A stretch of DNA of 64,000 nt from contig NC_012804.1 in assembly GCF_000022365.1 (NCBI RefSeq), positions 1,116,001 to 1,180,000 on the forward strand, read 5' to 3'. How positions within the stretch are numbered: the stretch's first letter is position 1; each line of letters begins with the position of its first letter. The DNA comes from Thermococcus gammatolerans EJ3 (GTDB taxonomy: Archaea; Methanobacteriota_B; Thermococci; Thermococcales; Thermococcaceae). Under the pieces are notes generated by a model that ran no database searches, was not told where the DNA came from, and saw only the letters and a list, made by a program, of their open reading frames with translations. Shown in pieces: positions 40,350 through 55,937 of the stretch. The translations under genes were made by a program, and so were the position numbers.

Positions 40350-41053
40350 TCCTCGAGCCTCCTGAGGAGCAACTGGTCGAGGGTTATCATGAGAAGGATT
40401 AAGAGCAACGCCCACGCGAAGACTCCAGCTTTGATTCCCAAATCGTAGGAGTAGACGAGCTGGTAGCCGATTCCGCCGGCAGAGCCAAAGGCCTCGGCAA
40501 CGACGCTTATCCTGAGCGCTATTCCCAGGGCCACTCTGCCTGCCGAAACCATCTCGGGGAGCGTTCCAGGGACGATGAAGTGCCGGTAGAGCTGAAGCTT
40601 TGAGGGTTTGAGCAGGACCACCAGCGGGCGGTATTTTTCTATCACCTTTTCGCTTGAGCTCACCCCAGCCGAAAGCAGTGCTGGAAAAGATGCCATCGCG
40701 GTAACGAGTATCGTCGCGATTGAACTCGTAACGCCGAAGAGCATTATGAAGACTATCGTCCAGACGAGAACCGAGACGCTCTGGAGGAAGACGTTTAAAG
40801 CGTTCAGAAAGTCCCTGAAGGCCCTTGAGTACAGCGCTAAAAGCATCGCGAGGCCCGTCAGGAGGGAAGCGACCAGAAAGCCAGAGAAGCTGTGGTAGAG
40901 CGTCAGCAGAAGCGAGGAGAGGATTAGGGAAAGTCCGACCTCGCGGTAGAAGGCCAGAGTCTCCGCTGGGGTTGGGATTAGGGCCGGATACAGGTGGGAC
41001 AGGACAAGCCACGAGGCCACTGCAAATAGGAAAAGGTAGAGCCAGCCCCTCAT
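40325..41053 (-). CDS. ABC transporter permease (SsuC/TauC-like) in the quinone operon
   Basis: A 242-residue permease with about six helices and the BPD_transp_1 loop 'HFIVPGTLPEMVSAGRVALGIALRISVVAEAFG', the EAA-like contact with the ATPase. It belongs to the group importing nitrate, sulfonates, taurine or aromatic and pyrimidine acids. ATG 41053 lies 2 bases after the binding-protein stop. Its partner genes flank it. Confidence 0.9.
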   Translation of the reverse strand: MRGWLYLFLFAVASWLVLSHLYPALIPTPAETLAFYREVGLSLILSSLLLTLYHSFSGFLVASLLTGLAMLLALYSRAFRDFLNALNVFLQSVSVLVWTIVFIMLFGVTSSIATILVTAMASFPALLSAGVSSSEKVIEKYRPLVVLLKPSKLQLYRHFIVPGTLPEMVSAGRVALGIALRISVVAEAFGSAGGIGYQLVYSYDLGIKAGVFAWALLLILLMITLDQLLLRRLEEWVKGWYW

Positions 41054-41055
41054 GC

Positions 41056-42018
41056 TCAACCCCTGTAGAAGATGTCGAGGTTCTCGGGGTTCTCCCTGAG
41101 GTAACCCCCGAGGTAGGCCAGCTTCCACTCGCTCTTGATACCCCTTATCAGTTCGTCGTTGAGACCCTCGTCGTTGACCTCCGTTCTGCCGTAGAGAACA
41201 TCAAGCGTTTTGCCCTCAAGGTGGTAGAGCTCTCCGAGGATTTCCTTAGTCTCGGCTGGATTCTCCTTCCAGAACTCGGCGCTCTCAATCTGAGCCTTTA
41301 TGAAGGCATGGACCAAATCCTTGTGCTTTTCGAGGAAGTCCTCCCTGACGACCCAGACGAGCATTACCGCTGGGCCATTAACTATGCCGCGCTCCCTGGC
41401 CTCGTTCCAGAGCTCTGAAAACGTCGCTATTACCGTGTAGTTCTTGACTATCAGCTGGCTCACAATCGGCTCCCAGATTACAACGGCGTCAACGCTTTTG
41501 AGCGAGTCCTCAACCGAGCCGGGCGGGACGTTCACGACTGTGTAATCATCTGGAGTAAGGTTATAGAGAACCTTCATGTAGGCCTGGAAGAGCTTGAAGG
41601 TTCCCGAGGCGACGACGGCACCGATTTTCTTACCCTTCAGCTCGGCTGGCTTCATCTTCTCCTTCCCGATTATCGCCTGGTTCTGGAGCATGTCAACGCC
41701 GATGATTTTAATCTTGACCCCACTCTGGGCAAGCTTAGCGGCCATCTCGGCGGGAATGACCGCGAAGTCCGTCTCGCCCTTTTCGAGGGCCGCTATTATG
41801 TCAGGGGTCTTGCCGAGCCTGAGAACCTCGACCTTGAAGCCGTTCTCCCTGTCGAAGCCTTTAGCCTCCATGACGTCGAGAGTGCTGATTCCTCCAAGCA
41901 ATGTTGCGGCTTTAACGGTGGGAATCTCCGTTCCCGTTGGTTTCGTCGAGTTCGAGCCTATGCAACCCGAAACCACCACAACCAGCCCAATTAGGAGCAA
42001 CGCCAGGACCTTCCTCAT
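41056..42018 (-). CDS. ABC transporter substrate-binding lipoprotein (NMT1/SsuA-like)
   Basis: A 320-residue binding protein with a lipobox-type signal ('LLIGLVVVVSGC') that anchors it outside the membrane. The mature part has the type II periplasmic-binding fold of NMT1/SsuA proteins ('GGISTLDVMEAKGFDRENGF', 'FAVIPAEMAAKLAQSGV', 'VDAVVIWEPIVSQLI'). Ligands of this family include sulfonates, nitrate and aromatic acids. It starts one base after the prenyltransferase gene, inside a quinone-synthesis operon, which suggests an aromatic precursor as ligand (inference). Confidence 0.9.
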   Translation of the reverse strand: MRKVLALLLIGLVVVVSGCIGSNSTKPTGTEIPTVKAATLLGGISTLDVMEAKGFDRENGFKVEVLRLGKTPDIIAALEKGETDFAVIPAEMAAKLAQSGVKIKIIGVDMLQNQAIIGKEKMKPAELKGKKIGAVVASGTFKLFQAYMKVLYNLTPDDYTVVNVPPGSVEDSLKSVDAVVIWEPIVSQLIVKNYTVIATFSELWNEARERGIVNGPAVMLVWVVREDFLEKHKDLVHAFIKAQIESAEFWKENPAETKEILGELYHLEGKTLDVLYGRTEVNDEGLNDELIRGIKSEWKLAYLGGYLRENPENLDIFYRG

Positions 42019-42915
42019 TCAAACCCCTCCCAAAAGCTTGTCCGCTATGGCCGAGAGCGTGAGGATTAGGCCGATTGGAATGTTGAGGTTGAAGGCCTTT
42101 GGAACGTTGTCAAGGCTCTTCCAGACGATTAGGTTCTCGTAGAGGATTAGAGCGCTTCCAACGAGCCAGCCAGCCAAGTAAACCCATCCGAGGTCGTAGA
42201 GGAACCCAGCAAGGCCAAAGAGGGCTATAGCGAGAAGGTGGAAGGCGAGGGCAATTTTGAGGGCATTCTCTATGCCAAACCTAGCGGGAATGCTCCCGAT
42301 TCCGTGCTCAGCGTCGAACTCGTAGTCCATTATCGCGTATATCGTGTCAAAGCCCGCCACCCAGAAGAGGACGCCGAAGAAGAACGCCCAGGGAACCCGC
42401 GCGAGGACTTCTATGAAAGGAGCGTTTCCTCCAGCTGCTATCGTTCCTCCAGCGACCGCCAGGGCGAGCGTTAATCCGAGGTGGAGATGGGGGAAGCTGT
42501 GCTTCCTCTTCGCCCCCGAGTAGCTCATCGCTATTAACCAGGGAATCGGGCTTAGTAAAGCAGTCCAGCGGTTGAGGAGAACCGCCGAAACGAAGTAAAC
42601 CACTGAGCCAACGACGACGAGCCACCAGGCGTCGCTCACCTTCACCGACCCCTTAATCAGCGGCCTGTTCCACGTCCTCGGGTTCTGGCTGTCTATGTCG
42701 AGGTCGGCTATGTTGTTGTAGGCCAGTGCAGCTGTTCTAAGCCCGAGGAGGGCAAGACTCATCAGGATTATCTCGGCCCAGGTAACGTGGAAACCGCTGA
42801 GGAACGCCCCGACGTAAGCGTAGGGCAGGCTGAAGAGCGTGTGCTCTATCCTGACGAGCCTCATCAACGCGTGAAACCTGCTCGCTTTACTGACTTCACC
42901 GGGGTCGAAGGCCAT
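42019..42915 (-). CDS. ubiA: UbiA-family prenyltransferase (4-hydroxybenzoate/MqnP-like)
   Basis: An integral membrane enzyme that attaches a polyprenyl chain to an aromatic acid. The 298-residue product has about nine helices and both Asp-rich motifs: 'NNIADLDIDSQNPRTWNRPL' and 'YAIMDYEFDAEHGIGSIPAR'. The 'GFDTIYAIMDYEFD' form is that of 4-hydroxybenzoate-type and futalosine-pathway (MqnP) enzymes rather than of geranylgeranylglyceryl or MenA enzymes. ATG 42915 is one base after the UbiD stop; the long upstream extension overlaps that gene and is rejected. Confidence 0.9.
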   Translation of the reverse strand: MAFDPGEVSKASRFHALMRLVRIEHTLFSLPYAYVGAFLSGFHVTWAEIILMSLALLGLRTAALAYNNIADLDIDSQNPRTWNRPLIKGSVKVSDAWWLVVVGSVVYFVSAVLLNRWTALLSPIPWLIAMSYSGAKRKHSFPHLHLGLTLALAVAGGTIAAGGNAPFIEVLARVPWAFFFGVLFWVAGFDTIYAIMDYEFDAEHGIGSIPARFGIENALKIALAFHLLAIALFGLAGFLYDLGWVYLAGWLVGSALILYENLIVWKSLDNVPKAFNLNIPIGLILTLSAIADKLLGGV

Positions 42916-42916
42916 C

Positions 42917-44362
42917 TCAACCACCGAGGTACTTTTTGAAGAGGTCTTCAAGCCTTCTGAGGACTTCTGGGTTCTCTTTAACCTCCTCAACGACCCTGCC
43001 GTCCATCTCCTCGGGGAACTTTCTGGTCGCATCAATTCCGAGCTTGCTCCCGAGCGGGGGCCTCGGAACGGCCGGGTCGAGCGCATCTGTGTGTGCCTTT
43101 GGAATCACCAGAACGTCCCGCTCGGGGTTCACGAAGGAAGCTATTGCCCATATCACCTGGTTTATGTCGTGGGGGTTTATGTCTTCGCTGACAACCACTA
43201 TGACCTTCGTCAGCGCCATCTGTCCCGTTCCCCAGAGCGCGTTGAGAACCTTTTTTCCGTGCCCGGGGTAGCGCTTCTTTATCGAGACTATCGCGACACC
43301 CTGAAAGACGCCATATTCTGGGAAGTTCACATCAACGACCTCGGGCAGGACGACCCTCATCAACGGAAGGAAAATCCTCTCGATAGCCTTTCCGATTACG
43401 GCATCTTCCAACGGCGGTTTCCCGACGACGGAGCCGTAGTAAATCGGATTGTCGCGGTAGTAAACCCTCTCGGCGTGGAAAACGGGGTAGAGCTCGTTCC
43501 TCTCGCTCGGCTTATCGTAGAAGCCGAAGTGGTCGCCGAAGGGGCCTTCTTCGCTCAGCTCGTCAACCTGAACGTAGCCCTCTATGACGGCTTCAGCGTT
43601 TGCTGGAACGAGGACGCCGTTGGGCAGGCGGTAGAGCTCCAAACCCGAACCTCGGACGAAGCCCGCGAAGAGGAGCTTGTCCATAGGATAGGGAACGGGC
43701 GAAACGGCGGTGAGGAGAGTTCCAATGTCGGAGCCGATGGCTATCGCGACGGGCATTTTACCGCCGTTTCTCTCGAGGTAGTCCCTCCAGGCCTGACTTC
43801 CGCGCTTGTGAACCTGCCAGTGGATTACACCCCTCTCGCCATCGAGGAGCATGACGCGGTAGACGCTGATGGAGTTCACTCCCTTCGGGTCCGAGAAGCA
43901 GATGAGCGGGTAGGTGAGGTAGCGCGAACCGTCCTTCGGCCAGGTTTTAAAGGCTGGGACAAAGTTCAGGGGCTCGTCTTCCACCACATTTCTCGTGAAC
44001 TCGGCTTTCCTCACGAGCTTAGGCAGATAGTTGCCCAGCTCCCTGAGCTTCCCCAGCGACGACAGCTTGTCGGATAATCCAAGGGGCAAACTTTCCATTA
44101 GCTTGAGCGGTCTCTCGCCGATTTCCTCAAGCCTTTCAACGCCGAGGGCTTCCCTAACTGTCTCGACGCTCGTGAAGAGGTTTCCCGCTACTCTCCACTC
44201 TGGATGGCCCTTAACGCGCTCGAAGAGAACGGCTCCAGCCTTATCGTACATCACTCTCCTCAGAAACGCGGGAATCTCAAGCTCGGGCGAGAGTTCTTCC
44301 TCAACCCTAATCAGCTCGTTTCTCGCCTCAAGCCATTCCAGATAGTCGCGCATGTCTCTCAT
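42917..44362 (-). CDS. ubiD: UbiD-family (de)carboxylase (UbiD/MqnL-like)
   Basis: A prenyl-FMN-dependent decarboxylase, here most likely removing the carboxyl group of the prenylated aromatic acid. The 481-residue length is typical. Motifs include 'GVNSISVYRVMLLDGERGVIHW' (Mn and prFMN site), 'KRGSQAWRDY', 'AIAIGSDIGTLLTA', and 'LSEEGPFGDHFGFYDKPS', the Glu-rich catalytic loop. First gene of the six-gene operon; ATG 44362 follows GGAGGTG. No UbiX flavin prenyltransferase is visible in this window, so the cofactor must be made from elsewhere. Confidence 0.92.
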   Translation of the reverse strand: MRDMRDYLEWLEARNELIRVEEELSPELEIPAFLRRVMYDKAGAVLFERVKGHPEWRVAGNLFTSVETVREALGVERLEEIGERPLKLMESLPLGLSDKLSSLGKLRELGNYLPKLVRKAEFTRNVVEDEPLNFVPAFKTWPKDGSRYLTYPLICFSDPKGVNSISVYRVMLLDGERGVIHWQVHKRGSQAWRDYLERNGGKMPVAIAIGSDIGTLLTAVSPVPYPMDKLLFAGFVRGSGLELYRLPNGVLVPANAEAVIEGYVQVDELSEEGPFGDHFGFYDKPSERNELYPVFHAERVYYRDNPIYYGSVVGKPPLEDAVIGKAIERIFLPLMRVVLPEVVDVNFPEYGVFQGVAIVSIKKRYPGHGKKVLNALWGTGQMALTKVIVVVSEDINPHDINQVIWAIASFVNPERDVLVIPKAHTDALDPAVPRPPLGSKLGIDATRKFPEEMDGRVVEEVKENPEVLRRLEDLFKKYLGG

Positions 44363-44476
44363 GGGAGCACCTCCGGGAGAACCCTCACAATCTCTCCAGC
44401 CTTAGACTTTATTTAACTTAACCTCCTTAGAATTGCTCCCCGTTCATTTTGACACTTGAAAAAAGGAAAAGAAAAC

Positions 44477-45472
44477 TCAGTAGTAGCCCTCGGCCTCGGT
44501 GACCTTCCCGCCGAACATCTTGTAGACGTAGAGGGTGTAGGCCATGATGATTACCGCCAGGATTACTGAGACTCCGAGGACGGCCTTGAGGGTCAGCGGT
44601 GACGCCGCGAGGTCGTGTATGCTGAGCTTGAAGTTCGGGTCGGTGGTCGAGATGACCCAGTAGGGGTACATGCTGTAGTAAACGAGGAACACCACGAGCG
44701 GGAAGGCCAGCCAGCTTATGTAGAACGCCAGCCTCTCCTCGCCCTTCTTGATGAGGTGGCCGTCGAGCAGTCCAGCCACGAGGATTACCAGCGTCAGTCC
44801 AAGGCCAAGTGGAGTCATGAGCCTCTCGAACCTCAGCGGGGCCCAGATTTTCATGCCGATTACAGTCAGGAGCAGTAAGACCACCGTCAGGAGCCAGAAC
44901 TTGAAGGCGTAGCCCCTGAGCTCCTCCTGAAGCTTTCCGGTGGTCTTGTAGACGCCCCAGTTGGCACCGTGCCATATTGTGGCGAAGAGTATGAAGAGAC
45001 CGACGATGAGCGGGTATGGCCTGAAGAGCGTAAGCAGTGAGCCGTGGAAGCCATTGGCGTCTATGGGAATTCCCATGACGAGGTTGCCGACGACGACTCC
45101 GACAACGAGCGGTATCAGCGCGCTGACGAGGGCGAAGAGCTTGTCCCAGAGTTCCTTGTTCTTGTTCCTGAACTCGAAGCCGACGGCTCTGAATATCAGG
45201 AGGAACGCCAGGAGCCATATTGCGAGGTAGAAGGTGCTGAAGAGCGTTGCGTACAGGGCGGGCCACATGGCGAAGAGCCCCGCTCCCCAGGTGATGAACC
45301 AGACCTCGTTGCCGTCCCAGACAGGGCCGATGGTGTTGATGAGGATGTCCCTGTCCTTCTGGTTCTTGATGAGGGCAAGCAGTGCACCTATACCGAGGTC
45401 AAAGCCATCAAAGGCCAGGTACATTCCGAGGAGGAAGGCGGAAAAGTAAAACCAGGCAGTCGCGTAGTCCAT
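44477..45472 (-). CDS. cydB: Cytochrome bd-type quinol oxidase subunit II
   Basis: Membrane subunit with about eight to nine helices that accompanies CydA. The 331-residue product shows 'YLAFDGFDLGIGALLAL' and 'IGPVWDGNEVWFITWGAGLFAMWP', the signature segment of CydB, and 'ANWGVYKTTG'. The ATG at 45472 overlaps the cydA stop (TGATG), so the two subunits are co-translated; GTG 45475 is a possible alternative. The gene order cydA-cydB is the usual one. Confidence 0.95.
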   Translation of the reverse strand: MDYATAWFYFSAFLLGMYLAFDGFDLGIGALLALIKNQKDRDILINTIGPVWDGNEVWFITWGAGLFAMWPALYATLFSTFYLAIWLLAFLLIFRAVGFEFRNKNKELWDKLFALVSALIPLVVGVVVGNLVMGIPIDANGFHGSLLTLFRPYPLIVGLFILFATIWHGANWGVYKTTGKLQEELRGYAFKFWLLTVVLLLLTVIGMKIWAPLRFERLMTPLGLGLTLVILVAGLLDGHLIKKGEERLAFYISWLAFPLVVFLVYYSMYPYWVISTTDPNFKLSIHDLAASPLTLKAVLGVSVILAVIIMAYTLYVYKMFGGKVTEAEGYY

Positions 45473-46983
45473 CACTGACCACCTCCCGCGACGCTAACGG
45501 CAGGGGTCGGCTTCGCGGTGACGTCACCCTCAACGGGCTCGGGACCCTCCCTGATGAGCTTCCTGACGAAGTGGAGCCAGATGTAGAACAGCACGCTGTA
45601 GACCACGACGAAGCCTATGAGGGTTATCAGCACGTGGGTCGCCGAGACGTTCGGTGAAACTCCCGTGTTGGTTGTTACCATGCCCCAGACCATCCAGGGC
45701 ATCCTACCGACCTCGTGGGTGAACCAGCCGGCCTCACTGGCGAGCCAGGGGAGCGGGACGGTAACGACCAGCACCTTTAGGAACCACCTGGCGTCGTAGA
45801 GCTTGCCGAGCAGGAGGAGGAGCACTCCAATGAGTCCTATCAGTATGAAGAGCGTTCCGAGGCCTATCATGACGCGGTAGGCGTAGAACATGAAGGCCAC
45901 CGGCAGGGCTTCCTCAAGAACCTTGACCATCTGCTCGTTGGCGTCCGGGGCGTTGGGGTCAACGCCGTGAGCCTTCATGAGGGTCTCGATGAACTCCTTC
46001 CTGTCCTTCTCGCTGGCGAAGTTCGGGTTGTTGAGAACCTGCTCGTACCAGACGTATCTGGCCGCGTCGTGGAGTCCCATAACTTCGGCGTTCCAGTCAC
46101 CGAACGAGAGCCAGCTGAGGAGCTTTGGAATCCCTATGGCGGCTTTAACCTCCTGGTTCTTCTCGTCAACTATTCCAAATATTATCATGGGTGCACCCTT
46201 CTCTGTCTTGAAGAGTCCCTCGTCGGCGGCGAGCTTGGTCGGCTGGTACTTGGCGATGACCTGGCCCTCCGCGTGGCCCGTTGGGTAGAGCTGTATTACC
46301 GCGCTTATCGCGAGGACGACCACACCTATTGCAACTGCCGAGCGGGCGACCTGGACGTGCCTCTTCTTGAGGAGGTAGTAGGCACCGACGGCTGCGACTA
46401 TGTAGGCCCCGGTGAGTATGGCGGAGTTGATTGTGTGGGTGTACTGGCTCACAAGGAGCGGGTTGAAGACCGCCCCCATGAAGTCGGTGAGCTCGGCCCT
46501 GCCGTTCTGGATTATGTAGCCTGTTGGGGTCTGCTGCCAGCTGTTTGCGATGAGAATCCACAGGCCAGAGAGGCTCGAACCGATGAACACGAAGAACGAT
46601 GAAATCCATGTTATCGCCCTCGGAAGCCTGTCCATGCCGAAGAGAAGCACGCCGAGGAACGTTGACTCCAGCGCGAAGGCGAAGAGACCCTCGAGCATCA
46701 GTGGAGGACCGAAGATCGAGCCGACGAACACTGAGTACTGCGACCAGTTCGCTCCGAACTCGAACTCCATGACTATTCCCGTCGGGACACCGAGGACGAA
46801 GAATATCCCAAGCCACTTGCTGAAGAACTTCGCCGCCTTGTGCCACTGCTTCTCGTTGGTTATGGCCGCCATGGTCCAGAGCAGGAAGACCATGAAGGCC
46901 ATTCCTATGCTCGCGGGCACGAAAATCCAGTGGTAGCCCGCGGTCAGGGCGAACTGTATTCTCGACAGCAGTATCGGGTCCAT
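45472..46983 (-). CDS. cydA: Cytochrome bd-type quinol oxidase subunit I
   Basis: Oxidises quinol and reduces O2 to water. The 503-residue product has the heme ligands and proton-path residues of the family: His18 in 'TAGYHWIFVP', Glu in 'ALESTFLGVLLFG', His in 'SQYTHTINSAIL' and Met in 'YRVMIGLG'. The quinol loop motif QPxKLAAxE is intact ('YQPTKLAADEGLF'). 'GWFTHEVGRMPW' differs from the bacterial GRQPW by one residue. The Q-loop is short. ATG 46983 follows GAGGTGAGC; a TATA box lies about 50 bases upstream. Confidence 0.95.
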   Translation of the reverse strand: MDPILLSRIQFALTAGYHWIFVPASIGMAFMVFLLWTMAAITNEKQWHKAAKFFSKWLGIFFVLGVPTGIVMEFEFGANWSQYSVFVGSIFGPPLMLEGLFAFALESTFLGVLLFGMDRLPRAITWISSFFVFIGSSLSGLWILIANSWQQTPTGYIIQNGRAELTDFMGAVFNPLLVSQYTHTINSAILTGAYIVAAVGAYYLLKKRHVQVARSAVAIGVVVLAISAVIQLYPTGHAEGQVIAKYQPTKLAADEGLFKTEKGAPMIIFGIVDEKNQEVKAAIGIPKLLSWLSFGDWNAEVMGLHDAARYVWYEQVLNNPNFASEKDRKEFIETLMKAHGVDPNAPDANEQMVKVLEEALPVAFMFYAYRVMIGLGTLFILIGLIGVLLLLLGKLYDARWFLKVLVVTVPLPWLASEAGWFTHEVGRMPWMVWGMVTTNTGVSPNVSATHVLITLIGFVVVYSVLFYIWLHFVRKLIREGPEPVEGDVTAKPTPAVSVAGGGQ

Positions 46984-47032
46984 AACCGCTCACCTCAGTT
47001 TATCCTTCAAACTAAATTTACCGATACTCAAA

Positions 47033-47049
47033 CTTATAATGTTTTCGGA
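47033..47049 (-). promoter_or_regulatory. cydA promoter: TATA box with TTCCGAAAAC element
   Basis: The minus strand reads TTCCGAAAAC directly upstream of ATTATAAG, so a BRE-like element overlapping a TCCGAAA sequence precedes the TATA box. The predicted leader is about 25-30 nt. Confidence 0.5.
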
Positions 47050-47100
47050 ACCTATACTAAGGGTGGTCATCACACAGATGAAAATTTTGGAAAAAGAAAG

Positions 47101-47304
47101 CTAAACTTTTGCCTTCGGACTGTTGGCGGAGGGCATCCCGTGCCTGTGGAAGACCCAGATCATGTAGCCTATTCCGAAGAGCATCCCCGGCACTACCCAG
47201 ACAACGTTGTGGAGCAGAAACGCTATCAGTACGAAAGCCAGTGCAAGTACTATTGCTACAAGACCCGCAACGACCTCTCGATTAGTCTCGATCTGCGCGG
47301 ACAT
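47101..47304 (-). CDS. Small two-helix membrane protein upstream of cydAB (67 aa)
   Basis: A short N-terminal cytosolic stretch (MSAQIETNREV) precedes two hydrophobic helices (about 12-31 and 34-52) and a basic tail with 'FHRHGMPS'. No family recognised. It is encoded on the same strand just upstream of cydA, with GAGGTGG before ATG 47304 and its own TATA box, and its promoter region is shared with the divergent SQR-like gene. Size and place suggest an accessory subunit comparable to CydX/CydZ, but this is inference. Confidence 0.65.
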   Translation of the reverse strand: MSAQIETNREVVAGLVAIVLALAFVLIAFLLHNVVWVVPGMLFGIGYMIWVFHRHGMPSANSPKAKV

Positions 47305-47337
47305 ACGACCACCTCAAACTGTATTTAGAACAATTTA

Positions 47338-47415
47338 TTCTTATATCTCTTTCGGACGAGTCTTTTTCCGAACTCAAACGGTGCGATAATCGAAAGAGTT
47401 ATATACTCATTCGGA
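47338..47415. promoter_or_regulatory. Divergent promoter region with three TTCGGA/TCCGAA elements
   Basis: For the minus gene, TATA GATATAAG (47347-47340) is preceded by TCCGAAA. For the plus gene, CGAAAGA (47391-47397) and TATA GTTATATACT (47398-47407) precede the SQR-like gene. TTCGGA at 47351-47356 and TCCGAA at 47367-47372 form an inverted repeat with a 10-base gap, and a third TTCGGA lies at 47410-47415. Confidence 0.5.
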
Positions 47416-47449
47416 CAAACATCAAAGTAGGAGTACTGGAGGTGCGGGT

Positions 47450-48598
47450 ATGGCCAAGGTGTTGGTTCTCGGAGGGGGCACCGCGGGTCTCATTGCGGCG
47501 CGCTACCTTAAAGCTGAGGCTGACAGGCTGAAGCTCGACGTTGACGTGACGATGGTGACCGCGAGCGAGAGGCACTACATGCCACCACTCTTCATGGAGG
47601 TCGCGCTCGGCTCGGCAGAGGCTCACGAAACCTGGGCTCCGATAAAGAACGCCGAGAAGGTCTACGGTTTCAGGGTTGACATCGATAGAGTAACTAAGAT
47701 TGACCTCGATAACAGACAGGTAAAGACCGAGGGAGGAAAGGTTTACGACTACGACTACCTCTTCCTCGGCCTCGGCGTCAAGTACGCCTGGGACAAGTAC
47801 AAAGGCCTTGCCGAGCACGGCTACCACAACTACACCCTTGAAGGCGCACTCGAGCTGAGAAAGGCTCTCTACGGGTTCAAAGGAAAGAGGATAGTCATCT
47901 ACGCCCCCGAAGTGCCCTACAGGTGCGGCATTTATCCCTACGAGATGGGGCTCGCGCTCAGGGCCTACTTCGAGGCCAAGGGACTCAACGACGTTGAGAT
48001 AAAGGTCGTTCATCCCGGTGACGGTCCCGCGAGGAGCCTCGGCCCGACCGTGAGCAGGTTCTTCGAGAAGGAGTTCGAGAAAGCCGGAGTGGAGTTCATC
48101 CACCACGACGGGCACGAGAGAATAACCGAGGGCAAACTTGTAACCAAAAACCTCGAGCTCGACTACGACCTACTCATCAAGGTCCCGCCCATAGCGATTC
48201 CCGACGTCATGGCCTTCATGGCCGATAGCCAAGACCCGCGCTGGGCCAAGGTTAAGGGTCCTGACTTCCGCTACCCCGGCTACGATGATGTTTACGTCGT
48301 CAGCGAGGCGAGCATGCCACCCTTAGGGCTCTTAACGGCTGGTGTCCCGCTCCACAACGCGGCGGTAGTTTCTGCAACGAGCATACTCCACCAGGTGCAT
48401 GGAGGCTATCCGATAGCCGAATTTGTCCCGACGATGTGCCTCGGCGTGGGTTATCACACGGGCTTCACGGCCAACTGCGAGTATAGGTGGACGGGGAGCA
48501 AGTACGAGAGAACCTGCTACCTGCTCTTCAAGAGCCCCCTCATAAAGGAGATGAAGGCCTCCTTCTACAGGGGCTGGCTTGACAGTTTGAGGCTGTGA
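47450..48598 (+). CDS. Sulfide:quinone oxidoreductase-like FAD protein
   Basis: A 382-residue pyridine nucleotide-disulfide-family flavoprotein with FAD motif 'VLVLGGGTAGLIAARYLKAE', 'YDYDYLFLGLGVKY' and 'VYVVSEAS'. Cysteines in 'PEVPYRCGIYPYE' and 'VPTMCLGVG' lie where SQRs carry catalytic thiols, and two more Cys are near the end. SQR passes electrons from sulfide to membrane quinone. Substrate cannot be fixed by eye; a related sulfide or NAD(P)H dehydrogenase is possible. First gene of a six-gene operon with a DUF1641 partner; ATG 47450 follows GGAGGTGCGG. Confidence 0.82.
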   Translation: MAKVLVLGGGTAGLIAARYLKAEADRLKLDVDVTMVTASERHYMPPLFMEVALGSAEAHETWAPIKNAEKVYGFRVDIDRVTKIDLDNRQVKTEGGKVYDYDYLFLGLGVKYAWDKYKGLAEHGYHNYTLEGALELRKALYGFKGKRIVIYAPEVPYRCGIYPYEMGLALRAYFEAKGLNDVEIKVVHPGDGPARSLGPTVSRFFEKEFEKAGVEFIHHDGHERITEGKLVTKNLELDYDLLIKVPPIAIPDVMAFMADSQDPRWAKVKGPDFRYPGYDDVYVVSEASMPPLGLLTAGVPLHNAAVVSATSILHQVHGGYPIAEFVPTMCLGVGYHTGFTANCEYRWTGSKYERTCYLLFKSPLIKEMKASFYRGWLDSLRL

Positions 48599-48608
48599 GG
48601 TGAGGAAG

Positions 48609-49028
48609 ATGAGCGAGCTCAAGCTTACCCCCGAAGAGGTTGCCGCCGTTAGGGAACTTGTCGAGGTTGCCGTAGCTCTGAAGAAGGGCGGAACCCTCGG
48701 ACTGCTCAAGTCCTTCACCGAGAACGGCGACAGGTTACTCGAAACAATCTCCGAAGAGAAGGCCCTTTTGAGGCTCGCCGCGATAGGAAATTCAGCCCTC
48801 GAACCGGTCAGGGAAATTGAGGCAGAGAAGGTAAACGACATCAGCATGAACGTTGAGGAACTTGTCAACGCCCTTCTCAGGGCCCTCGCAGAGACAAACC
48901 CGAAGGAGGTTCCAAAGGTCGGGATGACGGGAGCGATTGGCTACCTCCGCGACGAGGACGTTCAGAAGGGCCTCGGCTTCCTATTGACCCTTGCGAAGAA
49001 CCTCGGTAGGGTTTTGAACGAGAAGTGA
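48609..49028 (+). CDS. DUF1641 protein, SQR-associated
   Basis: A 139-residue helical acidic protein ending in the DUF1641 signature 'GYLRDEDVQKGLGFLLTLAKNLG'. DUF1641 proteins are regularly encoded beside SQR-type flavoproteins in archaea and bacteria, which supports the assignment of the gene 10 bases upstream. Biochemical role unknown. ATG 48609 follows GAGGTGAGGAAG. Confidence 0.85.
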   Translation: MSELKLTPEEVAAVRELVEVAVALKKGGTLGLLKSFTENGDRLLETISEEKALLRLAAIGNSALEPVREIEAEKVNDISMNVEELVNALLRALAETNPKEVPKVGMTGAIGYLRDEDVQKGLGFLLTLAKNLGRVLNEK

Positions 49029-49057
49029 TTCTTTCCCTTCTTTTTGGAGGTGGAACC

Positions 49058-49954
49058 GTGAGGGTTCTCTTCACCTACATGGGAGCGCCGACGACACCCG
49101 ACGAAGTTGAGGACTTCATATTCCGCTTTCTCTACGACGTGAGGAAGGACATAGGACTCGACGTGCCGGGGGCCAGGGCGATAATCAGGGGCATAGCCAA
49201 GGCCCGCGCCCGGGCAGTCAGGGGCCACTACGCGGTTATGGGCGGAAGAAGCCCTCTTGTGGATTACATGCGAGAGATAGCCGAGCTGGTGAGTGAGAGA
49301 ACAGGTTATGAGATAACCCTCGGCATGTGCTATTCCAGACCTCTCCTTGAAGAACTGAGCGACGGCTTCGACCTCGTCTTTCCGCTCTACCACGTCTACT
49401 CCAGCTCGACGACCGAGAGGTGCCTGATTAAAATCAGAGAGCTCTTCGGTGAGAGACCCTACATCAGAGAGTGGTGGGGCAACGAGAGGTTCATAGCGTG
49501 GGTCAGGCACAACATCGAGAAGGGTTTGGCGGAGAGCGGTTTTGAGAACCCCCACGTCGTCCTGAGCGTCCACAGCCTGCCAAGGAAGGTCATCGAAGGG
49601 GGCGACCCCTACCTGAAAAGCCACACAGAGCTGGCGAAGAGGGTCATGAAGGCCTTCGACTTCGAGTGGGAGATGGCCTTCCAGAGCAGGTTCGGCAAAG
49701 GTGACTGGCTCGGGCCGGAGATTCCAGAAGTTCTGGAGAGACTTAAGGAGGAGGGCGTTGAGGAGGTCTTAGTTTACCCCCTCAGCTTCCTCGTTGAGAA
49801 CGTCGAGACGCTTTATGAGCTCGACGTTGAATACCGGAAAAAAGCCGAGGAGCTCGGGCTGAGGTTTTACCGGGCTAAGCTCGACCACAGGCACGATTAC
49901 CTTATCTCGGCGATAGCCCAAGAGCTTAGGAGGTGGGAAGATGGGAAGGCTTAG
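49058..49954 (+). CDS. hemH: Ferrochelatase (HemH/CpfC-like)
   Basis: Inserts Fe2+ into protoporphyrin IX or coproporphyrin III. The 298-residue product has N-terminal 'LFTYMGAPTTPDEVEDFIFRF', the catalytic His172 in 'VVLSVHSLP', 'GGDPYLKSHTELAKRV', 'FQSRFGKGDWLGP' and the catalytic Glu250 in 'VETLYELDVEY'. The residue equivalent to the second metal-path His (SEH in human) is Asn248. The GTG start at 49058 is preceded by GGAGGTGGAACC. It lies in the SQR operon beside cydAB, so heme for the oxidase is the likely purpose. Confidence 0.9.
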   Translation: MRVLFTYMGAPTTPDEVEDFIFRFLYDVRKDIGLDVPGARAIIRGIAKARARAVRGHYAVMGGRSPLVDYMREIAELVSERTGYEITLGMCYSRPLLEELSDGFDLVFPLYHVYSSSTTERCLIKIRELFGERPYIREWWGNERFIAWVRHNIEKGLAESGFENPHVVLSVHSLPRKVIEGGDPYLKSHTELAKRVMKAFDFEWEMAFQSRFGKGDWLGPEIPEVLERLKEEGVEEVLVYPLSFLVENVETLYELDVEYRKKAEELGLRFYRAKLDHRHDYLISAIAQELRRWEDGKA

Positions 49955-50270
49955 GGACGCTTTCATAGCCTACGTCTTCGGCTTCGTTGGGGGTATTCCC
50001 CTGCTCCTCATGAAGGACACGGACGAGCTGACAAAGCTTCATGCGGCCTACTCCAGCGTGGTGGGCTTCTTCTTCTGGATTGCCTTCATGGGAGCATGGC
50101 ACATGTACCCGGGTTATCCTGAGTTCGGCTGGTCGCTCTACGTCTTGGCCCTCTGGTACGTCTACGCGCTTTTCGGGGTCTGGAAGATGCTGAGGGGTAA
50201 GACCTACAGGATTCCCGGCGTCGAGGGACTGGCCAAAAAGCTCGTTAGAGTAATAGCCCCAGCCGTGTGA
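49941..50270 (+). CDS. Small membrane protein in the SQR operon (109 aa)
   Basis: About three to four hydrophobic helices (near 7-22, 36-55, 62-82) and a basic C-terminal tail; no named family, though layout resembles DUF4870-type proteins. It overlaps the ferrochelatase end by 14 bases with GGAGGTGGG upstream of ATG 49941. A role in heme or porphyrin handling is possible only from context. Confidence 0.7.
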   Translation: MGRLRDAFIAYVFGFVGGIPLLLMKDTDELTKLHAAYSSVVGFFFWIAFMGAWHMYPGYPEFGWSLYVLALWYVYALFGVWKMLRGKTYRIPGVEGLAKKLVRVIAPAV

Positions 50271-50279
50271 GGGGTGAAA

Positions 50280-51275
50280 ATGAGACGATCCATCGTCGCC
50301 CTGTTTTTCACCGTTATGCTCCTCTCGGGAGTGCCCGTTCTGGCGGATGAGTTCACCGAGGAGGGGAACGCCTTCATGGAGGACTTCATAAAGGCCATGA
50401 ACACCGGCAACTACTCCCTCATAGAGCCCCACCTGAGCGAGAGGCTCAGGAACGAGCTCGGGGAGAGGGAGTTTGCCCAGCTCAGGGGCTTCACGATGGA
50501 GAACTACGGCCGGTTGCTGTCCTTCAGCTTCGTCAACGAGAGTCGTGAAGGGGATATGGTGAAGCTGGAATACGAGGTCAAGGCGGAGAAAGGGGCCTTT
50601 CCGATCGCCTTAACCTATGAGAACGGCGAGCTCGTTGGAATCGGCCTAGGGGTAAGGGCAAAGCCAAATCCAGCGGGAATGGTCGCGATGATTCTCGGCA
50701 CTCTGCTCGTCCTGGGGGCGTTTTACTTCATCCAAAAGCCAGTTACTCCAGACCTCGTCCTCGGAGCTGGGATAGCGCTCGGTCTGTCGGTTCTCATCCC
50801 CTTCTACGGGATAATCTCGCTCGTCGTGGCGTACTCCACGCTCTCCCGCGCCCTGTTCACGGCCTTTACAACCGCCCTGACTGTCGAGGCCGTCAAGTTC
50901 TACTTCGCCCGCAACAGGGACGGCCTTTCCATAGGCCTCGGGCTCGGACTTGGCCAGTATGTCCTCCTCTCCATCGGCACCTTCGTGGCGACGAACTTCA
51001 TAATGCAACTACCCGTTTCCTTCACGGGGGCAACGTACTGGGCCTTCCTCTTCGCGCTAACGTTTACGGCTTTCCACGCGCTTTCGGCTGAGACGTATTC
51101 GAAGCTCCGCGACGGTAGGTTGCTCCTTCTCCTCGCATTCATCGAGGGGCTCGCGCTTGCGATGGAGTCGCTTTCGCGTCTCGGCCCTTCGCTGTTGCTT
51201 GTCTTACTGGGAATAGCGGTGGGACTCAGGCTCGGAGGTGTCATCGATGGAATCGCTGGACGAGAGGCTCGTTGA
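50280..51275 (+). CDS. Signal peptide, DUF3887-like domain and polytopic membrane protein (331 aa)
   Basis: The N-terminal signal (about 1-22, ending 'VPVLADE') leads a ~95-residue external domain ('AFMEDFIKAMNTGNYSLIEPHLSERLRNEL') like DUF3887/NTF2-type proteins. About seven or eight membrane helices follow from residue ~125 to the end, similar in layout to YhfC/PrsW-like proteins. No catalytic motif was identified. ATG 50280 follows GGGGTGAAA; its end overlaps the polyprenyl synthase start by 29 bases. Confidence 0.65.
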   Translation: MRRSIVALFFTVMLLSGVPVLADEFTEEGNAFMEDFIKAMNTGNYSLIEPHLSERLRNELGEREFAQLRGFTMENYGRLLSFSFVNESREGDMVKLEYEVKAEKGAFPIALTYENGELVGIGLGVRAKPNPAGMVAMILGTLLVLGAFYFIQKPVTPDLVLGAGIALGLSVLIPFYGIISLVVAYSTLSRALFTAFTTALTVEAVKFYFARNRDGLSIGLGLGLGQYVLLSIGTFVATNFIMQLPVSFTGATYWAFLFALTFTAFHALSAETYSKLRDGRLLLLLAFIEGLALAMESLSRLGPSLLLVLLGIAVGLRLGGVIDGIAGREAR

Positions 51276-52167
51276 AGCACTTGAGGGGAGCGTTGAGCTC
51301 GCGAAGAAAATCGGGGAGTACATAATCCGGAGCGGGGGGAAGAGGATAAGGCCGAGGATAACCCTGGCAGTTTCGAAAGGCCTCGGACTCGACGAGAACG
51401 ATGCCCTCGACCTCGCCTCGGCGATAGAGCTAATCCACACCGCCAGCTTAGTTCACGACGACGTCATTGATTTGGCGGAGAAGAGGAGGAACAACCCCAC
51501 CGTCGTCATGCGCTGGGGGCCCGAGCTTGCCGTCCTCAGCGGGGATTTTCTCTTCGTCCGCGCGCTGAGGATTATAGCCAAAAAGAAGGCCGCGATGGTG
51601 GACTACGTCGCCAAAGCCGTCGAGGACATGGTCAAGGGTGAAATCCTTCAGGAAGCCGTGCGCGGGAGCGTCCATCTCGACCTCGACACGTACTACGAGA
51701 TAATAGACAGGAAGACAGGAAAGCTTTTCGGAGCCGCCTTTGCGCTTCCCGCCTACTACCTCGAAAAGCCCTACTGGATGGAGCTCGACAAAGCCGGAAC
51801 GCTCGTCGGAAGGGCGTTCCAGATAGTTGACGACGTTCTCGATTACTTCCCCGGAACCGGAAAGGACCGCTTCAAGGATTTGCTCAACGGAAAGGCGACC
51901 CTCCCGCTGATCCTCTACACCGAGCGCTACGGCTCTTCATTCGTCGAAAAGATTCTTAAGAACCCGAGCGAAGAGAACCTGCTCAATCTCTTTGAGAGGA
52001 TGATGAATGCTGGTGTGTTCGAGGAATCTCTAAAAATAGCCAGGGGATACGTGGACGGGGCTCTGAAGCTCATTGGAGACCTGCCCTTCGATGGGAGCGA
52101 GGTTGTGAGGCTTGTTTCCGGATACTTTGAGGGGGTCTTCAAAAGGGTCAGGACTTCAGGTAGTTAG
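51247..52167 (+). CDS. Polyprenyl diphosphate synthase, probably long-chain
   Basis: Type E prenyl synthase of 306 residues with the two Asp-rich motifs 'LVHDDVIDLAEKRRNNPTV' and 'QIVDDVLDYF', plus 'GGKRIRPRITL'. In this family the fifth residue before the first Asp motif controls length: aromatic residues give C15-C20, Ala gives long chains. Here the stretch is 'HTASLVHDDVID', with Ala at that place, as in hepta- and octaprenyl synthases. That fits a quinone side chain rather than C20 lipid synthesis. ATG 51247 follows GGAGGTG. Confidence 0.9.
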   Translation: MESLDERLVEALEGSVELAKKIGEYIIRSGGKRIRPRITLAVSKGLGLDENDALDLASAIELIHTASLVHDDVIDLAEKRRNNPTVVMRWGPELAVLSGDFLFVRALRIIAKKKAAMVDYVAKAVEDMVKGEILQEAVRGSVHLDLDTYYEIIDRKTGKLFGAAFALPAYYLEKPYWMELDKAGTLVGRAFQIVDDVLDYFPGTGKDRFKDLLNGKATLPLILYTERYGSSFVEKILKNPSEENLLNLFERMMNAGVFEESLKIARGYVDGALKLIGDLPFDGSEVVRLVSGYFEGVFKRVRTSGS

Positions 52168-52237: not shown

Positions 52238-52285
52238 GTTCGTTAGACAAACCGAATGGATTTTAATCCGACTGGGGGGTCAGTC

Positions 52286-53773
52286 ATGATTGGCCTTCTC
52301 GCGACCTTAGCGTTCACGGTCCCGCTCATCGGTGGGTTAATCCTCTTCAGGCTCGACGAGAGAAAAGCAGACGTGGTAATGCTAGCTTCATTCATAACGG
52401 CGATGCTCCTCCAGCTCGGCGTTGCAGTCATTTATCTCCTCGACCACGAGGAGCTGATTCACATCGCCTACCTCAAGAGCACCCAGTTCGGCGAGGTCTA
52501 TGGTATAATAATCGACCCCATGAGCGTTCTAATCGGAACGGTCGTTGCAGTTGCTGGCTTCATATTCATGTTCTACGGCGTCGAGTACATGAGCGAAAGA
52601 AACGTCGGCCATCCCGGAGGAAAGGGAAGGGGCCTCTTCTACGCCTGGATGACGCTCTTTGAAGGTGCCACCCTCGGCTTCATATACTCCTCGACCTTCC
52701 TCGGCCTGCTCATCTTCTTCGAGCTGATGGGTTTGGCATGCTGGGGCGTCGTGAGCTTCTACAACACTCCCGCAGGCAGGAGGGCCGGCTTCAAGGCCTT
52801 CATAATCCCGAACGTGGGAGCTATGATAGGCTTTTACACGGCAATCTACATCGGCCTCACCCAGCTCCACGATTTAAGTCTGTTCTCGCTCCCGAAGGTC
52901 TCACCGGAGGTTAAGCCCTGGCTGTTCCTGGCTCTTCTCATAGCGGGATACACCAAGAGCGCCCAGTTCCCGACTTACTCGTGGATTCCGGACGCGATGG
53001 AGGCGCCGACTCCAGCGAGCGCTTTCCTTCACGGCGCGGCGATGGTTGAGATGGGCGTCTACCTCGTCGCGAGGGTTATCCAGTTCATAGGGCCCTTGCC
53101 AGTCTGGATTTTCTACTTCATGGCCGTAATGGTCTCGCTCACGCTCCTAATCCCGATACTCAACTACCCCGTCCAGAAGGACGCGAAGAGACTGCTCGCT
53201 TACTCGACTGTGGCAGAGGCGGGAATAATGTTCGTTGGCCTGACCTACGCCGTCCTCGGCCTTACTGGCAAAGCACCGGGCTTCGACGTCGGCCTCAAAG
53301 CCGCGATGTTCCAGCTGACAACTCACGCCTTCGTCAAGGGCCTGGCCTTCCTCACCGCTGGAACCTTCACGTACTCCCTCGGAACCCTTGACCTGAGGCA
53401 GATAAGTGGCCTCAGGAAACTCCTGCCGGTAAACGGCCTCGCTTGGACGGTGGCACTCCTCGGTTTAGCGGGCCTACCTCCTATGGGAATAGCATTCAGC
53501 AAGGCGGAACTGCTGACTAACCTGAGCCTTGTCAGGGTCTCCGCTCTGGCCTGGCTTCCGATACTGATGGTGCTGGCGGATTCGGCAGTCTTCCTCTGGG
53601 TCGGCCTCAAGTGGATAACGAGGAACGTCTTCGGCAGGCCAAAAGCAGTTAGGGCCCCAACCCACCCGATAATAACCGCGTCGCTCGTGACCCTCATCGT
53701 CCTGACGCTGGTCTCGGCTTACCTCGCCTATCCACTCGTTGAGGAGATAACCTTCTACGGGGTGATACCATGA
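52286..53773 (+). CDS. NuoL/MrpA-D-like antiporter subunit 1 of the Mrp operon
   Basis: A 495-residue ion-translocating subunit with about 14 helices. The charged residues of active antiporter modules are present: Glu in 'LIFFELMGLACWG', Lys in 'AGYTKSAQFPTYSWIPDAMEAPTPASAFLHGA' and Lys in 'TTHAFVKGLAFL'. It heads a nine-gene operon (D-like, second D-like, F, G, MbhD-like, B, C, E, D). ATG 52286 follows GGGGGGTC; its stop overlaps the next gene as ATGA. Confidence 0.88.
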   Translation: MIGLLATLAFTVPLIGGLILFRLDERKADVVMLASFITAMLLQLGVAVIYLLDHEELIHIAYLKSTQFGEVYGIIIDPMSVLIGTVVAVAGFIFMFYGVEYMSERNVGHPGGKGRGLFYAWMTLFEGATLGFIYSSTFLGLLIFFELMGLACWGVVSFYNTPAGRRAGFKAFIIPNVGAMIGFYTAIYIGLTQLHDLSLFSLPKVSPEVKPWLFLALLIAGYTKSAQFPTYSWIPDAMEAPTPASAFLHGAAMVEMGVYLVARVIQFIGPLPVWIFYFMAVMVSLTLLIPILNYPVQKDAKRLLAYSTVAEAGIMFVGLTYAVLGLTGKAPGFDVGLKAAMFQLTTHAFVKGLAFLTAGTFTYSLGTLDLRQISGLRKLLPVNGLAWTVALLGLAGLPPMGIAFSKAELLTNLSLVRVSALAWLPILMVLADSAVFLWVGLKWITRNVFGRPKAVRAPTHPIITASLVTLIVLTLVSAYLAYPLVEEITFYGVIP

Positions 53774-55656
53774 GCCTCTACTTCCTGGAGCTGGCCCTCG
53801 GACTGCTCTTCATCGCTTCGCTCGTCGGCCTCGCCTCGGGAAGGCGCGCCTACTACGTAACCCTCCTCGCGTCCTTCCCGCTCCTCGTGAGTGCGGTTGA
53901 GGGCTTAAACGGCATCTCGGGCGAGATAATTCCCTTCCTCCCGACGACGGTTAGAGTGGACTCCATCTCGGCCCTTTTCCTGCTCGTCACAGCTTTCATA
54001 ACGCTGGCCCTCTCGCTCTACCTGCTCTCCTATGGGGTAAAGGGCAACGAGAAGTTCATGGCTATGGCAACCAACATGGCACTCCTATCTGTTGTCCTGT
54101 TCCTCGTAACTGACAATCTCGAAAGACTTACCCTCGCCTACGAGCTCTTCGCGGTGTTTACCGCCGCCATGGTGCTCGCCTCTGAAACGAGGGGCTCAAG
54201 GAAGGCCACCTGGCGCTACCTCGTACTCACTCAGGTCTTCGGTATAATCCCACTCCTGATGGCGACCGGCTTGGCTTACGGTGCAGTTGGAGATTTACAC
54301 CACCTGACCTTTCACGGCCTTCGCGAGGACTTAGAGAACCTTCCTGTGAAACCTGTGTTCCTCCTCGTCCTCTTCCTCTCGGCCTCACTCGTCAGGAGCG
54401 GGGCGTTCCCCTTCCACGTCTGGGTTCCGAGGGTCTACCGCTCGCTCCCGAGCCCCTTTGTTCCGGTCTTCCTCCTCGGCGAGATCCTCGGGGTTTACAT
54501 GCTCCTCAGGGTTGTCCACTTCGTCCTCCCCGCTGGAGAAGCCTTCGGCTACACAGTTGCATTCCTCGGGACCGTAACGGCCTTCGCGACGCTCTACTCC
54601 TTCAGGGAAATCAGGCTCAAGCGTAAGTTCGCGTACCACAGCGTCATGGACGTTGGAATAGCCTACTTCGCCCTCGGTAGCTCCCTCGTTCTCAAAGGAA
54701 GTTTCCTCGGAACCGTTGCCCTCCTCGGAGCTTTGCTCCACCTCCTCTACCAGACCCTCTACAAGAGCGCCTTCTTCTTTGGCCTCGGCGCGATAGAGCA
54801 CTACGGTGAGGAGCCGAACATCTGCTCCATGAGGAAGCTCTTGAAGGGTCACGTCATAGCGCTCCTCGTTACCCTCTCCGTTTTTTCAATGGCGGGAGTT
54901 CCGCCGCTTTCAGCCTTCGTGAGCAAGTGGCTCATCTACACGGCTTCAATGGGCACGACCAACGTCCTCCTCTGGCTGATGGTTGTCACGGTGGCCTTCC
55001 TTGGGATATTTCCTCTGGCGTCAATAGTCCAGGTCAGAAGGATAAACAGGCTCATATGCAAGCGCGAGGTTGAGAGGGAAGAGGTTCCCTTCCTGATAAG
55101 GGCAGTCACCGGAACGGTCTCGCTCGTGAGCTTTCTCGTGGCCGTGTTCCCGTTTATCCTGCTCCCCTGGCTGACGGGTTCGCTCGAAGAACTCGGCTAC
55201 CCCCTGCCCGAGAGTGCATCCCATCTCTTCCTCGGAAGTCCGGGCTCTTTCATAGCACTCATCACGCTCGTGACAATGACTTTCATCGGCTGGAAAATCG
55301 GAAAGATGCCAACCGAGCGCGTCAGCGAGCTACTCCTTATCTTCTACAACATGGGCGACATCCTCAGATTCACGGCCGACTACTTCCTCTCGGTGGGCAA
55401 GGACTTTTACCTCAAACGCATACTCCCCATCATAAAGGTCGTTCCAAGGCACGAGGTGCCCATTATCAAGGACTACGACGACGCGCTAGATTATCCGGTG
55501 AGGCACCTCGACGAGGCCATGTTCATGCCCCTCATAAGGGCCGTTGAGAGGCTTGCTCGCTGGGGCAGGAGCAGAAACCCCGACATGAACGCGCTCATGG
55601 GTGGCTTTGCCATAGCTATGGCCATCCTGATAATCCTCCTGGGGGTGTTCGCATGA
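53770..55656 (+). CDS. NuoL/HyfB-like antiporter subunit 2 of the Mrp operon (628 aa)
   Basis: A ~14-helix antiporter-like subunit with a C-terminal extension (from ~500) containing a lateral amphipathic region and a last helix. The conserved Lys of the KSAxxPxHxWLP motif is Arg here ('LVRSGAFPFHVWVPRVYRSL'), while the TM5 Glu ('TLAYELFAVFTAAM') and a later Lys ('QTLYKSAFFFGLGAIEH') are kept. It may be altered in ion pathway. Coupled to its neighbours by ATGA at both ends. Confidence 0.87.
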   Translation: MSLYFLELALGLLFIASLVGLASGRRAYYVTLLASFPLLVSAVEGLNGISGEIIPFLPTTVRVDSISALFLLVTAFITLALSLYLLSYGVKGNEKFMAMATNMALLSVVLFLVTDNLERLTLAYELFAVFTAAMVLASETRGSRKATWRYLVLTQVFGIIPLLMATGLAYGAVGDLHHLTFHGLREDLENLPVKPVFLLVLFLSASLVRSGAFPFHVWVPRVYRSLPSPFVPVFLLGEILGVYMLLRVVHFVLPAGEAFGYTVAFLGTVTAFATLYSFREIRLKRKFAYHSVMDVGIAYFALGSSLVLKGSFLGTVALLGALLHLLYQTLYKSAFFFGLGAIEHYGEEPNICSMRKLLKGHVIALLVTLSVFSMAGVPPLSAFVSKWLIYTASMGTTNVLLWLMVVTVAFLGIFPLASIVQVRRINRLICKREVEREEVPFLIRAVTGTVSLVSFLVAVFPFILLPWLTGSLEELGYPLPESASHLFLGSPGSFIALITLVTMTFIGWKIGKMPTERVSELLLIFYNMGDILRFTADYFLSVGKDFYLKRILPIIKVVPRHEVPIIKDYDDALDYPVRHLDEAMFMPLIRAVERLARWGRSRNPDMNALMGGFAIAMAILIILLGVFA

Positions 55657-55937
55657 ACTTTGAGGCCGTGTTCCTGGACGTCCTTTACTTCGCGGCCGTC
55701 ATCTACACGCTCGCTTTCGTCCTGTACGGAATTCGAGCCATTAAAGGACCAACGACCGCTGATATTATCCTCGCGGTGGACTGCCTCTCCTTCGACATGG
55801 CGGCGTTCATGGTTGTGCTGGGAATCTACTTCAAGTCCATAATGCTCGCGAGCGGTGCGATAATCCTCGCCCTGTGGGCCTTCATGCTGGACATCTACTA
55901 CACCAAGTACGTCCTCTACGGGGAGGTGGAGGTATGA
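55653..55937 (+). CDS. mnhF: Na+/H+ antiporter subunit MnhF/MrpF
   Basis: A 94-residue, three-helix protein with the MrpF signature 'AIKGPTTADIILAVDCLSFD'. It is a small structural subunit of the Mrp complex. Both junctions overlap neighbours by ATGA. Confidence 0.92.
   Translation: MNFEAVFLDVLYFAAVIYTLAFVLYGIRAIKGPTTADIILAVDCLSFDMAAFMVVLGIYFKSIMLASGAIILALWAFMLDIYYTKYVLYGEVEV

Follow-up and report, generated by a model that had tools for sequence, protein, structure and literature searches.

Precursor-dependent respiration has been described in Lactobacillales, among which Lactiplantibacillus plantarum carries only menA and menG (PMC8303990) and Streptococcus agalactiae needs both heme and quinone (PMC6030563). 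Other described systems resemble single parts of the locus considered here. In Bacillus subtilis ForCE, the DUF1641-family protein ForE joins a soluble dehydrogenase to menaquinone (PMC8808070), while sulfide:quinone oxidoreductases (SQRs) are represented by the Acidianus (3h8i/3h8l) and human (6mo6) enzymes and cytochrome bd quinol oxidases by bd-I and bd-II of E. coli. The locus in question is a gene island around cydAB in the hyperthermophilic archaeon Thermococcus gammatolerans EJ3. The window analysed, a stretch of 64,000 nucleotides, covers positions 1116001-1180000 of the 2,045,438-bp chromosome, and all coordinates below are window positions. Gene content and conserved residues tip the balance, by a modest degree, towards an O2-scavenging and possibly energy-conserving chain that would run from sulfide through menaquinone to O2 and would depend on scavenged heme or porphyrin and on scavenged quinone precursors.

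Functionally, such a chain would come closest to the respiration of lactic acid bacteria, which depends on heme and quinone. The gene pattern that marks precursor dependence in Lactobacillales, late enzymes only alongside a bd oxidase, was found in the island as well. In both cases the bd oxidase belongs to a fermenter, only late quinone steps are encoded, and heme (and quinone) come, or in the island would come, from outside. Unlike the Lactobacillales systems, the island resides in an archaeal hyperthermophile, uses a UbiA/UbiD/UbiE-type late pathway, and is predicted to have a sulfide-type donor rather than NDH-2. It further differs in having its own ferrochelatase and dedicated ATP-binding cassette (ABC) transporters within the cluster.

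The core of the island, cydAB and the ubi genes, is already in the literature. The 2009 genome paper by Zivanovic et al. regarded cydAB (tg1232-1233) with the neighbouring ubiE (tg1226) and UbiA and UbiD genes (tg1230-1231) as acquired by transfer, proposed a role in detoxification of O2 and reactive oxygen species (ROS), and labelled the operon tg1241-1249 Mbc2; the portions of that account available to us do not discuss the pair formed by the SQR-like and DUF1641 proteins, the ferrochelatase, the missing upstream pathways, the logic of the importers or the lost cassette (PMC2718504). In a 2012 survey the CydA clade of Thermococcus comprised T. gammatolerans and T. sp. AM4 only; SQR was listed there for Thermoplasmatales and Sulfolobales and not for Thermococcus. 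What is added here is a likely sulfide/menaquinone entry module, the missing upstream genes for both cofactors, a porphyrin cassette in relatives and its scarred loss in T. gammatolerans. Also new is the finding that 10 of 37 Thermococcus genomes carry the island as a single syntenic unit, with cydA, SQR, ferrochelatase and cluster-type UbiD co-occurring.

A preliminary description of this DNA had named two divergent operons between 44477 and 52167. Every gene it named was found intact, in place and in that arrangement, and nine other Thermococcus genomes share this order; only the bounds had to be widened, since the unit runs from UbiE through at least the polyprenyl diphosphate synthase (~39.0-52.2 kb). 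The minus strand carries a 67-aa membrane gene, then cydA and cydB; beyond a 114-bp gap come ubiD, ubiA, the genes of an ABC transporter (for a binding lipoprotein, a permease and an ATPase) and ubiE. The plus strand carries the SQR-like gene, the DUF1641 gene, hemH, two membrane genes and the polyprenyl synthase, and then a Mrp-type operon.

The nine relatives with cydA retain the surrounding gene order as far as their contigs reach, which argues that the island is not a chance assembly. CydA, SQR and HemH occur in the same 6 of 23 genus genomes, and cluster UbiD in five of these six (the sixth contig ends first). Cluster-type UbiD, whose copies in the genus are at least 83% identical, is confined to genomes with cydA; those without it hold only a distant UbiD (~34% identity), presumably a mevalonate-route enzyme. 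As the genes are physically linked, their co-occurrence demonstrates co-inheritance and not independent co-gain. Further, all 11 genes tested (T. gammatolerans, G005 and G033) have a ratio of nonsynonymous to synonymous substitution rates (dN/dS) of ~0.08-0.25; the island genes are under purifying selection. With all genes intact and dN/dS low, a pseudogene island was rejected.

CydA (45472-46983, minus strand; PF01654, E=1.8e-149) has E. coli bd-II and bd-I as its nearest solved structures. As the preliminary description had claimed, its heme ligands and quinol residues are kept: H18, H183, M372, E98, E106, R370, K250 and E255 align with their E. coli counterparts and are invariant across nine genomes. 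With the family match, the three heme ligands, the glutamates, the Q-loop Lys/Glu and an adjacent CydB (44477-45475, minus strand; PF02322, E=3.7e-79; TIGR00203 above cut-off), the protein groups by sequence with quinol oxidases. The Thermococcus pair thus shares with E. coli bd-I and bd-II the heme ligands, the quinol-site Lys/Glu and the two subunits. However, Thermococcus CydA is a distant homologue, GRQPW is replaced by GRMPW in T. gammatolerans and some of its relatives, and the pair is accompanied by the extra 67-aa gene (47101-47304, minus strand). This first gene of the cyd operon is kept upstream of cydA in 10 of 10 genomes. Its hydrophobic product, with two hydrophobic stretches, matched no Pfam or NCBIfam family and showed no homology to CydX or CydS; it is a candidate small oxidase subunit with a CydX/CydS-like role.

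A CydA phylogeny had been suggested for tracing the donor lineage. It did not reveal the donor: Thermococcus CydA forms a tight clade on a stem of 1.75 substitutions per site, and the best hits outside the genus, from a genome scan that relied on two short exact motifs, are ~41% identical and scattered over Bacteroidota, Ignavibacteriota, Verrucomicrobiota and Chlamydiota. Naming a donor was dropped on these grounds. The island neighbourhood was not matched at any of 75 non-Thermococcus CydA loci, where the DUF1641 gene, HemH, UbiA and the radical SAM gene of the relatives' cassette (below) were found in 0 of 75. The sole resemblances were remote flavoprotein hits of 22-25% identity at three loci and two UbiD relatives at 40-41%.

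The predicted electron entry point is a flavoprotein (47450-48598, plus strand) with Acidianus SQR (3h8i/3h8l), flavocytochrome c sulfide dehydrogenase (FCSD) and human SQR as best hits. Like the Acidianus and human enzymes it belongs to the flavin adenine dinucleotide (FAD) Rossmann fold family and has two redox cysteines. Cys159 and Cys330, invariant in 10 genomes, align with their catalytic cysteines; there is a single GxGxxG (FAD) motif, and a C-x(3)-PYE motif stands where an NAD motif would be. An SQR-like protein beside a DUF1641 protein had been claimed beforehand, and the two cysteines, the lack of a second nucleotide-binding motif and the ForE-type partner all agree with that claim. 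An identity as NDH-2 was rejected for want of a second GxGxxG. Nevertheless, the island protein is distant in sequence from the Acidianus and human SQRs, is paired with DUF1641 and has an SQR role by prediction. It falls under every curated SQR cut-off (best NCBIfam model NF049943, a selenoprotein subtype, 117 bits versus a cut-off of 525), so that working like an SQR is better supported than membership of a named SQR type. An AlphaFold model was discarded because the mean predicted local distance difference test score was 58 from ten close sequences, with the second half below 50. The T. gammatolerans gene carries 48 private amino-acid differences as against 1 and 0 in two relatives, some of them matching a third species (L015); allele exchange or fast evolution are both possible.

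Immediately downstream lies the DUF1641 gene (48600-49028, plus strand; PF07849, E=2.6e-13). Bacillus ForE links formate dehydrogenase with menaquinone, whose binding requires it, and homology to ForE is presumed for DUF1641 proteins (PMC8808070). In the island the same domain is encoded beside a presumed quinone-reducing dehydrogenase, with an SQR-like flavoprotein in place of formate dehydrogenase as the catalytic partner. The DUF1641 protein is likely a ForE-like quinone-coupling partner of the SQR, and together the two are inferred to form a peripheral sulfide:quinone reductase.

The preliminary description, although right about the quinol bd oxidase, the SQR, DUF1641 and their linkage, had also taken the short chain to be complete. 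This does not stand: HemB, MqnA/MqnD and MenD were not found, and T. gammatolerans additionally lacks the heme/porphyrin cassette of its relatives. For the quinone, MqnA and MqnD of the futalosine menaquinone route are absent in 37 of 37 genomes (controls positive), and MenD of the classical Men route scored above cut-off in 0 of 4. The quinone route is therefore limited to the late steps of prenylation, decarboxylation and methylation. These are encoded next to the cyd operon in the quinone operon (39047-44362, minus strand) and by the polyprenyl diphosphate synthase (51238-52167, plus strand; PF00348, E=6.3e-55; best NCBIfam hit HepT-like, below cut-off), which likely makes the quinone side chain. 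The UbiD family decarboxylase (42917-44362; TIGR00148 above cut-off) is closest to a menaquinone (MqnL-type) model, TIGR03701, at 417 bits versus a cut-off of 496, and UbiX is encoded elsewhere in the genome. The MqnP/UbiA-like prenyltransferase (42019-42921; PF01040) is above cut-off for NF009609 and below it for the MqnP model (207 bits), and the UbiE/MenG C-methyltransferase (39047-39742) reaches 218 bits, above cut-off, with TIGR01934. A ubiquinone-type pathway was disfavoured, as the cluster shows no hydroxylases and UbiD and UbiA are nearer to the MqnL and MqnP models, in a check that was not exhaustive.

Between UbiA and UbiE the operon encodes an ABC transporter: a substrate-binding lipoprotein of NMT1/SsuA-like type (41056-42018; PF09084, E=3e-15; SsuA/TauA-like, below cut-off), its permease (40325-41050; PF00528) and its ATPase (39717-40397; PF00005), all on the minus strand. 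With a transporter encoded in this interval, the most economical interpretation is that the aromatic nucleus is imported, and the transporter is a candidate importer of the quinone precursor.

A similar picture emerges for heme. HemB is absent in 23 of 23 Thermococcus genomes, while the same search was positive in eight same-class genomes and controls; Storbeck et al. (2010) likewise listed no hem or ahb genes for T. gammatolerans and named ferrochelatase for three Thermoplasmata only (PMC3004389). The heme route is limited to the late step of metal insertion by the HemH ferrochelatase (49025-49954, plus strand; PF00762, E=2e-60; TIGR00109 above cut-off), which has the catalytic His/Glu, with His183 in an HSLP motif, and probably starts ~13 codons inside the called open reading frame. 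Within the genus HemH is confined to genomes with cydA. It scores higher with protoporphyrin (mitochondrial-type) than with coproporphyrin ferrochelatases, whereas the radical SAM protein of the relatives' cassette is nearest to AhbD, so that the two signals diverge on whether the cassette follows a coproporphyrin version of heme completion.

That cassette, ~5.5 kb and six genes long, lies between cydB and ubiD in relatives (L012:12089-17577 and L018:3078-8571), where the gap measures ~5.57-5.6 kb as opposed to 114 bp in T. gammatolerans. It encodes a TIGR04053 radical SAM/SPASM protein (523 bits versus a cut-off of 395), for which AhbD heme b synthase is the closest named function. Further products are two Peripla_BP_2 proteins, of which one is IsdE-like, a FecCD permease, a protein of flavodoxin fold that comes closest to HemG, and an HmuV-like ATPase that comes closest to heme ABC ATPases. 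Judged from these matches, the cassette reads as porphyrin or heme import and finishing. Its context also suggests a role for TIGR04053, on which no published work was found, in porphyrin or heme processing. In T. gammatolerans no TIGR04053 member scores above cut-off and no FecCD permease corresponding to that of the cassette was found. However, 30 bases of the residual gap (44358-44387, minus strand) are identical to, and in frame with, the 3' end of a relative's heme-type ABC ATPase gene and encode its last codons (RVLPEVLP-stop). They survive because they include the ribosome-binding site of ubiD, and they imply that the cassette was once present in T. gammatolerans and was then deleted.

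In the proposed mechanism, the SQR-DUF1641 complex would oxidise sulfide produced by the cell to polysulfide or sulfur and reduce a membrane naphthoquinone, and CydAB, perhaps with the 67-aa protein, would oxidise the quinol and reduce O2 to water. The quinone would be finished in the cell: the polyprenyl synthase and UbiA would prenylate it, UbiD and the housekeeping UbiX would decarboxylate it, and UbiE would methylate it. Its aromatic nucleus, probably a dihydroxynaphthoate, would probably enter through the transporter encoded between UbiA and UbiE. Heme too would be finished and not made: relatives would take up porphyrin or heme and convert it by means of the AhbD-like radical SAM protein, the HemG-like flavodoxin and ferrochelatase, of which T. 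gammatolerans retains ferrochelatase alone. In keeping with such a scheme, importer genes are embedded in the operons themselves (binding protein, permease and ATPase at 39717-42018; in relatives also the Peripla_BP_2, FecCD and HmuV-like genes of the cassette). The main role would probably be to clear O2 at vent interfaces, and conserved energy would come as a bonus. Of this picture, the gene content, the residues, the co-occurrence, the missing upstream genes and the loss of the cassette are read directly from sequence, and the substrates, the import, the direction and the physiology are deduced from them.

Two speculative extensions are consistent with the gene order. An antiporter operon of the Mrp type (52256-59873, plus strand), named Mbc2 in 2009 and lacking redox subunits, adjoins the island in all relatives with cydA, and close copies (at least 85% identity) of the subunit at 52256 occur only in genomes with cydA among the 15 genus genomes searched. 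The operon is a possible H+/Na+ converter, and Thermococcus energetics are largely sodium-based; the proton gradient of the bd oxidase could perhaps be turned into a sodium gradient. Moreover, Thermococcus cells can reduce formed sulfur again via their sulfur metabolism, and sulfide might thus act as a shuttle. It is a good deal more tentative that all of this combines into an O2 respiration in which both cofactors are completed from precursors of other vent microbes, a sulfide/sulfur shuttle links ferredoxin to O2 and the co-inherited Mrp operon provides a sodium gradient that drives ATP synthesis.

Several observations weigh against the proposed chain. The available part of the 2009 paper mentions no detection of island proteins in its proteome work (PMC2718504). 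The flavoprotein is only distantly similar to characterised SQRs, and sulfide is named as its donor from sequence. The binding protein of the presumed quinone-precursor importer resembles sulfonate/taurine binders, and T. gammatolerans, a tyrosine prototroph, therefore makes chorismate, a supply that leaves room for an endogenous quinone route. Lastly, loss of the cassette makes heme supply the weak point in T. gammatolerans: heme may arrive by another transporter or from rich medium, or the chain may be decaying. The chorismate and the SsuA/TauA-like protein would suit a fully endogenous chain, with heme and quinone nuclei made by unknown archaeal routes and the transporters serving other substrates such as sulfonates or iron, and the absence tests covered only HemB, MqnA/D and MenD. 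We regard this as improbable: known de novo heme routes, the archaeal Ahb route among them, share porphobilinogen synthase, which is absent genus-wide yet found in eight same-class genomes, and late enzymes are accompanied by an importer in the case of either cofactor.

The distance from characterised SQRs instead lends some weight to a different quinone reductase, linked to organic persulfide, NADH or ferredoxin, with the oxidase merely detoxifying O2 and ROS. Detoxification was the view of cydAB taken in the 2009 paper (PMC2718504), and the wider window holds peroxiredoxins, a rubrerythrin-like protein and FprA. Conservation of both SQR cysteines, C-x(3)-PYE in place of the NAD motif and best hits to SQR and FCSD make this rather unlikely. 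About as doubtful is a chain that works in relatives and decays in T. gammatolerans, in which the cassette is deleted, CydAB is left without heme and the remaining genes are on their way out. The ATPase scar, the lack of a true TIGR04053 member and of any other FecCD permease specific to T. gammatolerans, and its excess of private amino-acid changes relative to two relatives (CydA 18 versus 2 and 10; SQR 48 versus 1 and 0) are what decay would leave. However, all remaining genes are intact with pairwise dN/dS of 0.08-0.25 against relatives, HemH, UbiD and UbiA are not accelerated, and the SQR excess, with some residues matching G019, could reflect an exchanged allele.

Thermococcus is a standard strict anaerobe, and roughly one in four of the genus genomes searched would carry the predicted sulfide-quinone-oxygen chain without genes for its own heme or quinone nucleus. 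If the chain operates as proposed, it would account for the life of some strains at oxic vent interfaces and would extend heme and quinone cross-feeding to archaea. Strains with and without the importer cassette would offer a test bed for gain and loss of respiration, and hemin plus dihydroxynaphthoates would be predicted to switch on oxygen respiration.

Some further features accompany the island. BRE/TATA-like promoters, conserved in an alignment of 10 intergenic regions, precede the cyd operon (47338-47355, minus strand; CCGAAAG-n-GATATAAGAA) and the SQR operon (47386-47408, plus strand; ATAATCnAAAGnGTTATATAC). The two plus-strand membrane genes encode a 109-aa protein (49941-50270; order kept in nine relatives, 57-93% identity) and a 333-aa protein (50274-51275; order conserved) with a DUF3887-like N-terminus in relatives, below cut-off; the latter evolves fast (46-83% identity). 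A 203-aa protein beside the quinone operon (38104-38715) has no family match and is 93% conserved in two relatives. Oxygen-defence genes near the island (34399-37056 and 62029-62679) encode a peroxiredoxin-like protein, a rubrerythrin/ferritin-like protein, an FprA-type flavodiiron protein and a second peroxiredoxin. In one relative (L024:4787-6802), genes for a ferritin-like protein, an NAD-dependent epimerase-like protein and a second small methyltransferase adjoin UbiE.

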